Positions 23,020-28,523 of a stretch of DNA of 29,248 bases are shown here, one piece after another. Made by a program: the position numbers and the translations under genes. The notes beneath the pieces are model-generated. The model searched no databases. It saw only the letters and a list, made by a program, of their open reading frames with translations, and was not told the origin of the DNA. Source of the DNA: a virus; the IMG/VR virus record IMGVR_UViG_3300007735_000580, positions 1 to 29,248 of that record; one strand, given 5' to 3'. Position 1 is the first letter of the stretch. Every line of letters starts with the position of its first letter.

Positions 23020-23667
23020 TTAAAACGCCAGAGCGTCGTCGGCAAACTCTTCAGCCGCGGCGGCTGGTGCAGCTGCGGCCTTCGGGGCTGGCGCTGCAGC
23101 CTTGGGCTTGTCGATGATGCGGGCAGCGATCTTGTCCTGCACCCACTCCGGCAGCTTGTCGAACACGTCAGGGTCTGGCGCGTCGGTTGAGTAGATCAAC
23201 GCCTCACCTTCCAGTACCGGAGCAGGCATGCCCTTCGGCAGCGGCATGATGCTCGTGAGGTTGGCGTATGTTTTTTCGCCTTTAACGGAATGCGTTACAT
23301 TGATGAAGGCGGGCTTGCCGAGCACGTTGGCAAGGTCAAACCGCTTCAACTCTTCAGGCGTGAACGCCTTACCGCGCCAGCTCTGGAGCAACTGCCGCAG
23401 CGTCGCCTTCTCGTTGAGGCTCAAGCCGAGCGTGCGGGAGATCACCGCAGGGAGACTCTTAGTCTCGCCGTTCTTCGTGATCTCGACACGCTCAGAGGGA
23501 ATCTGAAAGCGAACCATTAGCGTGCGCTTCGGGGCGAACTGTCCGCCAGGTGAGGGCTGCACGCCCAAGTCCACGATCATGTCACAGACGGCTGCGTAAG
23601 CGGCAGCTTCGAGTGGCTTGCGCTCGGGATAGTTGCCGCCACCAGATGCAGAAATAATCAAGCTCAT
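23020..23667 (-). CDS. SSB-like single-stranded DNA-binding protein
   Basis: A 215-residue protein: a central beta-rich part with VRFQIPSERVEI, LSLNEKATLRQLLQSWRGKAFT and FINVTHSVKGEKTYANL, then an Ala/Pro/Lys linker and an acidic tail EEFADDALAF that imitates the SSB C-terminal protein-docking tip. Phage proteins with 'LHEKA.LR..LESWRG..F...NVTH....TYAN' are usual beside exonucleases and primases. AGGAG seven bases upstream supports the ATG. It would coat single strands during replication or recombination. The assignment rests on pattern memory and the acidic tail. Confidence 0.7.
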   Translation of the reverse strand: MSLIISASGGGNYPERKPLEAAAYAAVCDMIVDLGVQPSPGGQFAPKRTLMVRFQIPSERVEITKNGETKSLPAVISRTLGLSLNEKATLRQLLQSWRGKAFTPEELKRFDLANVLGKPAFINVTHSVKGEKTYANLTSIMPLPKGMPAPVLEGEALIYSTDAPDPDVFDKLPEWVQDKIAARIIDKPKAAAPAPKAAAAPAAAAEEFADDALAF

Positions 23668-23692: not shown

Positions 23693-23872
23693 TCACCAGT
23701 AATCTCTACCGCCCCGTGCGGAGCGCCAGTTAGGCGGGGGAACCTGCCGCCAATTCTCGTGTAGTGTGTTGCGCGACGCGCTACGGAAGCGGCGGTCGCG
23801 CAGGTGTTCGATGATGCCGTGGATGGACCAGAGCAAAAACAAGACGAATAGGATTGCGAAAAGGATTTTCAT
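23693..23872 (-). CDS. Single-TM small protein below the DNA methyltransferase (59 aa)
   Basis: A 59-residue protein with an N-terminal membrane helix (KILFAILFVLFLLWSIHGII) and a basic, Trp/Arg-rich cytoplasmic-type tail (RDRRFRSASRN, NWRSARGGRDYW). The start overlaps the methyltransferase stop by ATGA, which strongly supports it as a gene. It is not a family I know. It could be a membrane-targeted host-takeover peptide or a link between DNA and membrane. Confidence 0.65.
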   Translation of the reverse strand: MKILFAILFVLFLLWSIHGIIEHLRDRRFRSASRNTLHENWRQVPPPNWRSARGGRDYW

Positions 23873-25056
23873 TGTGCCGTCTCTAGCTTGTTGATCTGCT
23901 CACCAATCCAGCGCATGACGGGCACCGCCATGCTGTTGCCTAGCGCCTTGTAGCGTGGGCCGTCTGGCGCCTCGTCTTTCTTACGCCATGGGATGTTCGT
24001 GTAATTGTCAGGGAAGCCTTGCAGACGCTCGCACTCGACGGGGGTGAGGCGGCGGACTTGCATCGACGGCTGCGCGATGACATTGCTTGGCCGACTTGGG
24101 CGGTTCTCACCTTCTGCTCGCAGCGTCCCAGAGACGGTGTCTTGCATCCAGTAGCCTTGCCCAGATTCACGCATCGCCACCGGCTGCGCCACCGCCATCG
24201 GGTTTTTGGCTTGCAGCGTCTGCATTAGGTCAATGTCGGTCTGCGGCACGGACATCTGTGCGCCGAAAGACACCGGAAGCAAGGCTCCCTCCTCAATATC
24301 TCGAGCGCCAAGCGCATTCATCATTCGCGCCGTTAGCGTGCCAATAATGTGCCCGTTGGCAATCGACTGATGCGTTAATTTTCCTCCGCCGCACTCGGTA
24401 TCAAGACTTCCGGCAACTGTTGGCACGCATTCTTCGTGGTTGTTGCGACTGATTCCAAAGCGCGCTGCAATTGTTCCGGCAACTTCTTGCCCCTTTTCTC
24501 TGCTCGGCGGAGTATCCCGGCGCACGCTTTCGCGCTCAAAAAGAACCTTGGCGGGACGCTGCCAGTCTCCAAGACATCCGACAACGAACACACGACGGCG
24601 GCGCTGGGCCACTCCGAACCATTGAGCGTCGAGAACTCTGTAGGCGAACCCATACCCCAGTTCGCCCAGCGCCCCGAGGAAGGTGCCAAAATCCCGTCCT
24701 CCGTTCGATGACAAGACGCCGGGGACGTTTTCCCAGACAATCCATCGAGGCCGCTGACGTTGAGCGATCGCAAGAAAGGTAAGCATGAGGTTGCCGCGTG
24801 GGTCGGCAAGTCCTTTGCGTAGTCCTGCGACGCTGAAGGATTGGCAGGGGGTTCCTCCGACAAGAAGGTCAACTGATTCAAGGTTCCACTCCTCAAACTT
24901 GGTCATGTCCCCAAGGTTGGGAACGTGCGGGTAATGATGGGCCAACACGGCAGACGGGAAAGGCTCTATGTCGCTGAACGCGACCGGCTGCCATCCCATG
25001 TGGTGCCACGCAACGGTGGCGGCTTCGATGCCGCTGCACACGGAAAGGTACTTCAC
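23869..25056 (-). CDS. DNA cytosine-C5 methyltransferase
   Basis: A complete 395-residue m5C methyltransferase: SAM-binding SVCSGIEAAT (5-14), GGTPCQSFS with catalytic Cys71, WENVPG (109-111 ENV), QRRRRVFVV (from 151), a variable target-recognition region around 190-335, and the end motifs RRLTPVECERLQGFPDNY and ALGNSMAVPV. It transfers methyl from SAM to cytosine in a short site that cannot be read here. The GTG at 25056 overlaps the stop of a tiny upstream gene (GTGA) and has GGAGG four bases off; the longer open frame is upstream coding in another gene. No restriction enzyme is nearby, so it is an orphan, likely protective, enzyme. Confidence 0.92.
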   Translation of the reverse strand: MKYLSVCSGIEAATVAWHHMGWQPVAFSDIEPFPSAVLAHHYPHVPNLGDMTKFEEWNLESVDLLVGGTPCQSFSVAGLRKGLADPRGNLMLTFLAIAQRQRPRWIVWENVPGVLSSNGGRDFGTFLGALGELGYGFAYRVLDAQWFGVAQRRRRVFVVGCLGDWQRPAKVLFERESVRRDTPPSREKGQEVAGTIAARFGISRNNHEECVPTVAGSLDTECGGGKLTHQSIANGHIIGTLTARMMNALGARDIEEGALLPVSFGAQMSVPQTDIDLMQTLQAKNPMAVAQPVAMRESGQGYWMQDTVSGTLRAEGENRPSRPSNVIAQPSMQVRRLTPVECERLQGFPDNYTNIPWRKKDEAPDGPRYKALGNSMAVPVMRWIGEQINKLETAQ

Positions 25057-25172
25057 CACTCCTCCGGATTCGCTATCGCGTAAGCCAACACAGAGACCGC
25101 GATGGCGCCGAAGACTTGGGCCAAGAATAGCCACTCCTCACGGGTGGCGTAGCCGACGATTAGATCGTACAT
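25053..25172 (-). CDS. Tiny membrane protein upstream of the methyltransferase (39 aa)
   Basis: A 39-residue protein MYDLIVGYATREEWLFLAQ followed by one membrane helix (VFGAIAVSVLAYAIA) and an acidic end NPEEW. AGGAG seven bases upstream and the GTGA overlap into the methyltransferase make it credible despite its length. Unknown family. It may couple methyltransferase translation to its own or act separately at the membrane. Confidence 0.6.
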   Translation of the reverse strand: MYDLIVGYATREEWLFLAQVFGAIAVSVLAYAIANPEEW

Positions 25173-25813: not shown

Positions 25814-26026
25814 ATGAAGAAAAAGATCACCCCGCAGCATGCCGCGGTTATTCATGCAATCAATCTGGCTGGCGGGCAGTCCGCACTTGCCAGGCGCTTA
25901 GGTATACGCCCACAGGCGGTGCAGAAGTGGTACGTCAATGGCGTAGTCCCACCCCTGCGCGTGCTTGCCGTGGAGGCGGCAACTGGTGTATCACGCAAGG
26001 CTCTTAGGCCGGATATCTACCCATGA
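25814..26026 (+). CDS. Cro/YdaS-like helix-turn-helix repressor
   Basis: A 70-residue DNA-binding protein: AVIHAINLAGGQSALARRLGI, then RPQAVQKWYVNGVVPPLR forms a helix-turn-helix, followed by VEAATGVSRKALRPDIYP, the usual ending of YdaS/Cro-type phage regulators. It lies in the divergent control region and probably binds the TACTACAACC repeat to adjust both promoters. There is no ribosome site and the -10 is seven bases away, which suggests leaderless translation as for lambda cI. The stop overlaps the primase start (ATGA). No separate CI-like repressor or integrase is in the window. Confidence 0.82.
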   Translation: MKKKITPQHAAVIHAINLAGGQSALARRLGIRPQAVQKWYVNGVVPPLRVLAVEAATGVSRKALRPDIYP

Positions 26027-28068
26027 AGCCAGAACTCACCGCCATCGTGCCAGTCGAGCGTATCCTCGAGCTGGCGAAGAAGTACCCCGTATTCCCGTGC
26101 AGGAGAAAAGATGAAAACCAAGAAGGGCGCACGCTCAAAGCCAAAAGCCCGCTCACCCGAAACGGATTTAAAGACGCCACGCAAGACGAGGCGCAGATTC
26201 GTCGATTCTGGGCCAGTCACCCTGACGCACTCGTTGGGATTCCAACCGGCAGCCGCACCGGACTTGCCGTCATCGACTTCGATACCAGCAAGGCTGGCGC
26301 GGCTGCTCAGGACTGGCTTGCAGAAAATCAGGCGGCTCTGGTAAGCACCAAGGTACACCAGACCGGCGGCGGTAGCGGCGGCAGACATTACCTGTTCTCG
26401 ACACCTTCGGGTGTGAAAATTCGCGGCGGTGCGTCGGTTACGCTCGGCAAGGTGCGCCGCGATGGCCTCGACATCCGCGCCGAGGGCGGGTACATCATCT
26501 GGTGGCCGCTGCACTACGGGCAGAGCGGCCCGATGGGCGACATCAAGTCGCTACCGGCCGGGCTGATCGACGAGCGGCGCATGGATCTCGAGTTGCCCGC
26601 GGAGCTGGCGGCAAAACTACCGCCGAAGCCTGGCACCAGCGGGGACTTTCAGCGCGACCTGCCGCGGATCACCGAGGCGCTGTCGTTCATTGACCCGGCG
26701 CCATACGATTCGTGGCTGATGGCAGGGATGGCACTGCACTACGCCAGTGGCGGAGCCGATGACGGGCTAGAACTGTGGGACGCCTGGTCATCCGGCGGCA
26801 TCACTGGCGTGCTGCCCGCGTCGTACGCCGGGCGCGCAGACATCGAGTACCGCTGGCAGTCGTTCCACCTTGACCGCGGCGGCGGGGTCACGCTCGGTAG
26901 CCTCTTTAACGCGGCCAAGGCTGGCGGCTGGGTGTCTGTGCCAGAGGCGGTGAAGATCGGGCCACCGAAGCGGGAGGAGCCGCCAATGCAGTACGACGAC
27001 GTGCCAGAGGCGCAGGGGATGATTCGGCACGCTGAGCCAGAGCTGCCGGCGCAAAGTGTGACACCGGGTGGCATAGTCACAGGCCGTCGTCTCATCCTGC
27101 GGCCCATCGGCGAGATCGTGACCGAGCGGCGCGAGGCGACGTGGCTGATTCACAACGTACTCGAGGCCAACGTGCTGGCGGTGCTCGCAGGGCCGCGTGC
27201 TAGCTTTAAGTCGTTTATCGCCTTGGATTGGGCGATGCGCATTGCGGCGGCTGATAATCCTGTGGTCATCCTGTCGGGCGAGGGTGCCGGTTTGGGCCGT
27301 CGCGCTGAAGCATGGATGCAGGAGCATGGCAAGGGGCGCGACCTAGGTGAGCTTCGGCTCATGGCGCTGGAGTCCGTTGCCAACCTAAACGCCGAGACTG
27401 AGATGGCGATGCTCCAGCAGTCCATTGACGAGGCTGGCATACGACCGGCGCTCGTGATCGTGGACACGTTCAGCAAGTTTAGCGCCGGGCTGGACGAGAA
27501 CAGCAACCAGGAGGTTGCCGAGTATCTCTCGAAGCTCACCATCGGGCTGCGTGAGCGGTACACGGCCACGGTATTGCTCGTGGCGCACAGCGGGCACGGC
27601 GATGCCAAGCGACCACGGGGCGCCAGCGCGCTGATGGCAAACCCAGACGCTGAGTACATCGTCGAGCGGCCAGACGCGCAGGCCATGGCGGTGGCGGTTA
27701 GCCGTGAGCGGTTCAAGGACACGGCCAGCCTGTCTCCACTTGGATACGAGGCGGTGGAGGTGTCGCTCGGGCGGATGGACAAGTACGGCGAGCCGGTCAA
27801 GTCTCTGGTGATGAGGGAGGCGACGGCGCCGGGTAAGCCGGCGGTGGCTCACTCGCCCCAGGGTAAGGCACAGCGGACGATCCTTGCGGCGCTCAGGGAG
27901 CGTCAGAAGCGGTCTGATGCGCCGCTGGTTTGGACGGTCGAGGAGATGCGCCAGATAGGCCGGGAGTGTGGGGTTGCGAGGCAGTCTGTCCACGATGCGG
28001 TCGAAAAGTTGATGCTGTCACCCTTCCTGAAGGCCAGTGTAGGCGGCAGTATGCTGGGGGAACCATGA
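26023..28068 (+). CDS. Primase-polymerase fused to RepA-like AAA helicase
   Basis: A 681-residue replication protein. Residues about 15-200 form a Prim-Pol domain: VGIPTGSRTGLAVIDFD (Asp85, Asp87 metal ligands), GGRHYLF (His122), DIRAEGGYIIWWP (Asp150). Residues about 213-305 look like a PriCT-2-type domain (IDPAPYDSWLMAGMALHY). From about 375 there is a RecA-like/AAA_25 ATPase with Walker A-position GPRASFKS (390-397), Walker B LVIVDTF (477-483) and AHSGHG (521-526). The C-terminus looks like a winged helix (VARQSVHDAVEKLM). It would make primers and unwind DNA. Walker A has Phe in place of the usual Gly. It is coupled by ATGA to the repressor gene. Confidence 0.85.
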   Translation: MKPELTAIVPVERILELAKKYPVFPCRRKDENQEGRTLKAKSPLTRNGFKDATQDEAQIRRFWASHPDALVGIPTGSRTGLAVIDFDTSKAGAAAQDWLAENQAALVSTKVHQTGGGSGGRHYLFSTPSGVKIRGGASVTLGKVRRDGLDIRAEGGYIIWWPLHYGQSGPMGDIKSLPAGLIDERRMDLELPAELAAKLPPKPGTSGDFQRDLPRITEALSFIDPAPYDSWLMAGMALHYASGGADDGLELWDAWSSGGITGVLPASYAGRADIEYRWQSFHLDRGGGVTLGSLFNAAKAGGWVSVPEAVKIGPPKREEPPMQYDDVPEAQGMIRHAEPELPAQSVTPGGIVTGRRLILRPIGEIVTERREATWLIHNVLEANVLAVLAGPRASFKSFIALDWAMRIAAADNPVVILSGEGAGLGRRAEAWMQEHGKGRDLGELRLMALESVANLNAETEMAMLQQSIDEAGIRPALVIVDTFSKFSAGLDENSNQEVAEYLSKLTIGLRERYTATVLLVAHSGHGDAKRPRGASALMANPDAEYIVERPDAQAMAVAVSRERFKDTASLSPLGYEAVEVSLGRMDKYGEPVKSLVMREATAPGKPAVAHSPQGKAQRTILAALRERQKRSDAPLVWTVEEMRQIGRECGVARQSVHDAVEKLMLSPFLKASVGGSMLGEP

Positions 28069-28180
28069 TGTCCGAAAATGTCCGAAAATGTCCGAACCGG
28101 ACAATTTCGGCGGGTCAATTATGTCCGAAAATGTCCGAGTGTCCTTAAGGACACGGACATTCGGACATGACCTTCGGACA
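28068..28180. repeat. Iteron-like cluster of ATGTCCGAA motifs, candidate origin or operator
   Basis: Direct copies of ATGTCCGA(A/G) start at 28068, 28078, 28088, 28121 and 28131, the first three and last two exactly 10 bp apart. Inverted copies (TTCGGACAT or shortened) lie at 28098-28103, 28154-28160, 28160-28168 and 28173-28180. The cluster follows the primase-helicase gene. A 27-codon frame (28065-28148, ATGA overlap) runs through it but its product is only a translation of the repeats. Regular 10-bp spacing puts copies on one face of the helix, as in replication iterons and cooperative operators. Confidence 0.75.
28121..28168. other. Large imperfect hairpin with a 16-bp perfect palindrome at its tip
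   Basis: GTGTCCTTAAGGACAC (28139-28154) is a perfect palindrome. Outside it, ATGTCCG and ATGTCCGA on the left pair with CGGACAT and TCGGACAT on the right, with two short left-side bulges. The extruded form would have over 20 pairs. No T-run follows, so it is not an ordinary terminator; it is better read with the iteron-like cluster. Confidence 0.65.
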
Positions 28181-28202
28181 AGAGATCAGACAGGAGATTG
28201 AG

Positions 28203-28523
28203 ATGGACTTTGTTTCAATTGGAACGATTGATGACTGGGACGTGAGCATTTTGCCTTGGCCGTCGTATGGCGAGCATGGCGTTTGGTGGACAGTCAAGGC
28301 GAAGCACAAAGACGCTAAGGGTGCTTACTGGCTGAACTGGAATGGTAGGCGGTTCGCAGACAGTGTTCCGCTGTATAGGCTTTACGAAAGGAATCCGTCA
28401 CTGCATGAAGAACTACTCAAGAAACTTGCGGCGTGGTCTGCCGGAAAAGCGGATCCAATTAACGCAGCCCATTGCAGATACGCCACTAGCCAAGAGGATG
28501 CTCAAACAGATGGGCAAAGATGA
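28203..28523 (+). CDS. Unknown small protein after the repeat cluster (106 aa)
   Basis: A 106-residue Trp-rich protein: FVSIGTIDDWDVSILPWPSYG, then VWWTVKAKHKDAKGAYWLNW. I chose ATG 28203 because AGGAG lies seven bases upstream; an upstream ATG (28167) is inside the repeat cluster. Not a known family to me. The last third overlaps the next open frame; the C-terminal Gln/Asp-rich end looks less protein-like. Confidence 0.55.
   Translation: MDFVSIGTIDDWDVSILPWPSYGEHGVWWTVKAKHKDAKGAYWLNWNGRRFADSVPLYRLYERNPSLHEELLKKLAAWSAGKADPINAAHCRYATSQEDAQTDGQR

Follow-up and report, generated by a model that had tools for sequence, protein, structure and literature searches.

A word array at the stop codon of a phage primase-helicase gene, a probable replication origin with the C-terminal winged helix of the encoded protein as its putative reader

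What is the function of a dense array of short repeated words that begins at the stop codon of a phage primase-helicase gene, and which protein reads it? In known initiators a DNA-binding domain sits on repeats, a helicase melts the DNA and a primase starts synthesis (PMC4234260). As far as the searched literature shows, most phages whose replication proteins are of the Prim-Pol/RepA-like kind have no mapped origin, and no description of arrays like the present one was found in the full text of open-licence papers. The locus lies in a stretch of 29,248 nucleotides (IMG/VR virus record IMGVR_UViG_3300007735_000580, positions 1 to 29,248), hereafter the window. A sequence-only reading had offered it as a candidate origin, recognised by the primase-helicase or by a small protein, or as a cooperative operator. 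The array is composed as follows.

28069-28180, no strand: whole array, 112 bp, nine TGTCCG words
28069-28074, plus strand: word 1, TGTCCG
28079-28084, plus strand: word 2, TGTCCG
28089-28094, plus strand: word 3, TGTCCG
28098-28103, minus strand: word 4, TGTCCG, inverted
28106-28113, minus strand: degenerate inverted site (tenth), TTCGGCGG, intact as TTCGGACG in relatives
28122-28127, plus strand: word 5, TGTCCG
28132-28137, plus strand: word 6, TGTCCG
28154-28159, minus strand: word 7, TGTCCG, inverted
28162-28167, minus strand: word 8, TGTCCG, inverted
28175-28180, minus strand: word 9, TGTCCG, inverted
28113-28172, no strand: hairpin-forming half of the array, -20.8 kcal/mol as ssDNA, z -7.3, with the palindrome GTGTCCTTAAGGACAC at its tip

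The stop codon of the rep gene is the first element of the array. The five direct copies of ATGTCCGA noticed earlier were recovered, with starts at 28068, 28078, 28088, 28121 and 28131; they form two blocks with 10-bp steps within each, the blocks being 33 bp apart. All four of the inverted copies that had been claimed hold the 6-bp core TGTCCG, but only one is an exact inverse of the 8-mer. The 16-bp palindrome GTGTCCTTAAGGACAC at 28139-28154 is indeed perfect. Several helically phased direct copies of a short word thus adjoin an initiator gene, as iterons do; no AT-rich unwinding element of the kind found in classical iteron origins was seen in the sequence of the array region, where local GC is about 55% (1-kb windows). 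The packing also exceeds chance, as had been stated: nine non-overlapping copies of one 6-mer lie within 113 bp, while the best 6-mer count per 113 bp reached 5 when the window was dinucleotide-shuffled 200 times and 4 with 2000 local shuffles, and elsewhere in the window itself it is 5. Since TGTCCG is not over-represented across the whole window (20 observed against 17 expected), the signal is the clustering. Just after the array lies a 118-aa ORF (28167-28523) without counterpart in most relatives and with a match of only about 19 residues in a few; in relatives a different small gene starts 20-30 bp after the array.

The array follows a gene whose product could itself bring together the activities of an initiator.

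26023-28068, plus strand: rep gene for a 681-aa primase-helicase, Prim-Pol + PriCT_2 + AAA_25 (RepA-like)
27823-28065, plus strand: predicted winged-helix domain (AlphaFold2), residues 601-681, putative reader of the array
27979-28014, plus strand: recognition helix RQSVHDAVEKLM, residues 653-664, which covaries with the word
25814-26026, plus strand: 70-aa YdaS/Cro-like repressor gene, overlapping the start of rep; rejected as array reader

Pfam identified Prim-Pol, PriCT_2 and AAA_25 with E-values of 5e-26, 2e-14 and 4e-26, and in PHROGs the protein falls under DNA polymerase/primase. Residues 600-681 were modelled by AlphaFold2 with a pLDDT of 80 and the order H-H-H-E-E; the full-length model is poor (mean pLDDT 52), and the same three C-terminal helices recur in it. 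Foldseek searches of the PDB with the C-terminal domain returned generic winged helices, none below an E-value of 0.001. Sequence searches against solved structures gave no match for the whole protein and none that was significant for the C-terminal profile.

The window phage has many relatives in IMG/VR, and looking for the motif at the same place in them, a check that had been proposed at the outset, gave a clear answer: an array is present in all 90 loci with enough downstream sequence, and its word varies. The single locus without an array, L024, stops 32 bp past the gene. The word is TGTCCGA in 48 loci, GTACGAA in 22, GGTCAAA in 16, TGTCCGG in 3 (two distinct proteins) and TGTTGGA in 1 (one sequence). 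The layout of sites is nearly constant, at 0, 10, 20, 29-, 53, 63, 85-, 93- and 106- for TGTCCG and at 0, 9, 18, 27-, 52, 61, 91- and 103- for GGTCAA (the minus sign marks inverted sites), and most copies switch word together, although several copies stray from the class word in L034 and in L248/257/258. As far as sequence can tell, such a change of many copies at once at fixed positions bears the stamp of a reader that recognises specific DNA sequence. Near-complete genomes hold only one such array each. No close relatives were found in plasmid and genome collections.

The word sorts with the recognition helix of the primase-helicase. In the 90 loci the helix predicts the word without exception: RQSVHD goes with TGTCCGA, RHSVHD with TGTTGGA, RSSVHE with TGTCCGG, KQSVHK/R with GGTCAAA and KTTAHA/T with GTACGAA. 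Of the 681 positions, residue 658 has the highest mutual information with the word, and the highest segment mean falls on helix 653-664. Because near-copies among related loci inflate these counts, trees were built. On the tree of the protein body (residues 6-590, in which the branch of L060 is unreliably long) the word changes at least 7 times, whereas on that of the C-terminus (residues 611-681) it changes 3 times, which is the minimum. C-terminal identity is 74-99% inside a word class and 50-56% between classes; the first 590 residues do not predict the word, and the primase body ranks relatives in an order unrelated to it. Recognition by the primase-helicase, one of the two readers first proposed, thus appears well supported, in that the place of the array is kept and its word follows the helix.

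Some pairs of relatives retain the outline of an exchange. L027 (GGTCAAA) and L012 (TGTCCGA) share about 95% identity to either side of the exchanged part. In the gene, most 60-nt bins stand at 88-100% identity until about 420 nt before its end; identity falls to 50-75% through the C-terminal domain and the array, and returns to 91-96% from +180. L026/L015 and L027/L013 show this course too. L027 and L012 also differ in the repressor region, 2.1-2.7 kb upstream, which elsewhere does not track the word. Judged from these alignments, the C-terminal domain and the array, which covary, move as one cassette between shared flanks that stay in place, a natural domain swap. The two are adjacent and one recombination tract carries both, so that co-transfer alone is no proof of contact. 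Linkage alone would account for the co-transfer, but not for the internal coherence of the words or their match to the helix.

Every array also carries a predicted hairpin. As ssDNA the whole array of the window (28069-28180) is predicted to fold into a three-way junction of -39.6 kcal/mol (z -9.0), and hairpin z values range from -2.9 to -9. Inner stems vary with their pairing mostly kept (GTGTCC/GGACAC, GAGTCC/GGACTC, GAGACC/GGTCTC, AAACCC/GGGTTT and others), and among the GGTCAAA arrays a change in one outer arm is matched in the other (CCATG/CATGG, CTATG/CATAG, TTATG/CATAA). The hairpin tip is not a word; most tips are CTNNAG (CCTTAAGG, CCTTTAGG, CCTATAGG), though not all, as CCTATGG in L043/L044 shows. 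A stem-loop whose sequence diverges while its pairing is kept therefore stands 3' of the rep gene.

Sequence shows the array with its conserved place and arrangement of sites, words that change together with the helix, an exchanged cassette and a hairpin whose pairing is conserved. From these we infer that the array is probably the iteron-plus-hairpin replication origin of the phage, one to which the primase-helicase binds through its C-terminal winged helix. The 681-aa protein would bind the TGTCCG words through this domain, and many bound copies would load the RepA-like helicase ring. The helicase would then melt the region and expose the hairpin, where the Prim-Pol domain could lay the first fork primers. 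GC skew, proposed earlier as a check on the start of replication, has its minimum 0-1.7 kb 5' of the array in five of seven genomes; it is uninformative, since the minimum coincides with the gene-strand switch and is missing in two genomes.

Other functions have to be weighed against a replication origin. As an operator for the downstream genes, bound by the primase-helicase or another protein while replication starts elsewhere, the array would be well placed between two genes of the same direction, about 20-30 bp ahead of the next gene in relatives, and its nine clustered sites would suit cooperative binding. We nevertheless consider this unlikely: there is no sigma-70-like promoter on the coding strand of the window and one weak one on the other strand, where 0.3 were expected; the word classes are not mirrored in the downstream gene; and the array stands behind the rep gene instead of in front of it, and includes a hairpin whose pairing is conserved. 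Clustered direct and inverted repeats are also a feature of partition, packaging and recombination sites, but that the array is one of these is extremely improbable, its covarying partner being the replication protein itself and each near-complete genome holding a single copy; an unsystematic look recognised no par or terminase gene beside it. Strong predicted folding and paired stem changes, together with the T's that follow the hairpin in Rhizobium phages, would suit an element that acts as RNA, either a structured intergenic RNA or a transcription terminator. This is very unlikely, as the direct copies change in concert, although RNA pairing needs no identity among them, and their 9-10 bp steps equal one turn of the DNA helix; in addition, the element has no Rfam match and the window has no terminator-like site.

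We likewise give very little weight to a reader other than Rep, be it a host protein or a small phage protein (the repressor, the SSB-like NGO0469-family protein or the product of the downstream gene). The repressor is a DNA-binding protein adjoining the rep gene, and the 215-aa SSB-like protein (23020-23667, minus strand) matches the NCBIfam entry 'phage replication initiation protein, NGO0469 family', yet no candidate sorts by word. Near-identical repressors accompany different words (L004/L042, L011/L028, L036/L045), and identity of the SSB-like protein is higher in L042 (GGTCAAA; 91%) than in most TGTCCGA phages (about 80%). Relatives ranked by the exonuclease or by the downstream-gene protein fall in an order unrelated to the word. 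Recognition by a small protein, the other reader first proposed, was abandoned on these grounds for the repressor, the SSB-like protein and the downstream protein, and a host reader would leave the covariation with the Rep C-terminus unexplained.

The early region offered further observations. The repressor is itself a variable module (L004, L011, L027, L028, L036, L042, L045), near-identical across origin words and vice versa. The 215-aa protein has an acidic tail, EEFADDALAF, with which it looks like a single-stranded DNA-binding protein, and its family name may be misleading. A DNA (cytosine-5) methyltransferase is encoded at 23869-25134 on the minus strand.

Several known systems resemble parts of the proposed origin. 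The helicase of P4 alpha belongs to SF3, and P4 has a second site, crr, besides ori. Here Pfam gives Prim-Pol and AAA_25, not a Toprim-type primase with an SF3 helicase, and each near-complete genome has one array in place of the two P4 sites; no second site like crr was found in six near-complete relatives. P4 alpha, whose primase is of the bacterial Toprim type where Rep has an AEP Prim-Pol and a RepA-like helicase, nevertheless shares with Rep a layout of primase, helicase and winged-helix domain (C-terminal here, as predicted from Pfam and AlphaFold2) on one polypeptide, and the P4 domain binds origin repeats (PMC4234260). ORF904 of the Sulfolobus plasmid pRN1 likewise combines a Prim-Pol, a helicase and a C-terminal winged helix, with a repressor gene upstream; just 3' of its rep gene lies a structure, essential in pRN1, that retains its fold although its sequence diverges, as here, and its authors left the bound sequence unidentified (PMC4234260). 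pRN1 differs in its helicase, which is SF3 and not AAA_25, and in its origin, a 100-nt stem-loop without iterons. The iterons of RSF1010 are longer than the words described here, and its RepA, RepB' and RepC are three separate proteins where the phage has one fused protein. RSF1010 oriV resembles the array in its iterons and hairpins, and in being served by a RepA-type helicase, an iteron-binding initiator and a primase (PMC4234260). SaPI Rep and SCCmec Cch2 match the reading proposed here in that the C-terminal domain of an initiator-helicase sits on short repeats immediately after the gene that encodes it (PMC7581432); their helicases belong to other families, and Cch2 has a separate primase-polymerase. 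In the PLE satellites of Vibrio cholerae, as here, the DNA-binding domain of RepA and the origin covary and are swapped as a module, and by experiment only cognate pairs replicate (PMC8263062). PLE RepA is, however, a RepA_N initiator without primase or helicase, acting on three semi-palindromic iterons of about 30 bp, and comes in two classes where we count five or more. A winged helix as origin reader was proposed earlier for other AEP primases (PMC5862659). What is new is the combination of an AEP primase, a RepA-like helicase and a predicted winged helix with a short-word iteron array and a hairpin. New, too, are how many word/helix pairs exist and that free phages exchange the cassette. 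For PLEs, which origin-directed nucleases attack, selection for a new origin address is reported (PMC8263062), and the exchange seen here suggests a like pressure.

Arrays extend beyond this family, to distantly related rep genes of cultured phages and of bacterial genomes. Of 15 deposited phage records that contain distant relatives, 8 show an array immediately behind the rep gene, with a separate word for each lineage, and 7 have none there. The words are CGGTACA in Idiomarinaceae 1N2-2, GGGGACA in Salicola CGphi29, TGAACC in Alteromonas XX1924 and PB15, TGGGACA in ct3Oc712, GCTGGAA in Roseobacter CRP-406 and GCGTGACA in Rhizobium 16-3 and RHph_X2_25; arrays after rep genes in bacterial genomes use CCCGAAA, GGCGACA, CTGACCC, GTTCCCA, GGGACAA and AACCCTC. 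In 71 loci picked by protein similarity only, 15 arrays lie in 35 kb near the rep stop (-100 to +400) and 4 in 350 kb elsewhere, an array being a word with at least 5 copies in 160 bp, under thresholds set after some loci had been seen. We tentatively propose that the locus exemplifies a replicon design based on a single gene and widespread among phages and mobile elements: directly at the stop codon of a primase-helicase gene begins an array of a word of about 7 bp, combined with a hairpin whose CTNNAG-like loop is perhaps where the primase starts. Each lineage might re-invent the word along with the recognition helix, and the two might be traded as a cassette, so that phages which are otherwise alike would carry many origin/initiator pairs blind to one another. 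The cassette offers a concrete and testable answer for a group of environmental phages. It also yields a rule, to look at the rep stop codon, by which arrays have already turned up in phages of Idiomarina, Alteromonas, Salicola, Roseobacter and Rhizobium. The five or more pairs of word and recognition helix form a natural data set for the DNA code of winged helices, and could also serve for building mutually independent replicons.

TGTCCGAAAATGTCCG, met in other isolate-derived contigs (L071, L075, L091, L094 and similar), forms no large array and is a different element, with about three words near one contig end, possibly beside an integrase gene. Dense 7-mer arrays were also seen far from the called rep stop, at L323:5007-5157 (AAACCCG, eight copies), L328:4939-5094 (CCACCGC, ten copies) and L309:4972-5123 (CGTACCA, six copies); these may be further origins or coding repeats.
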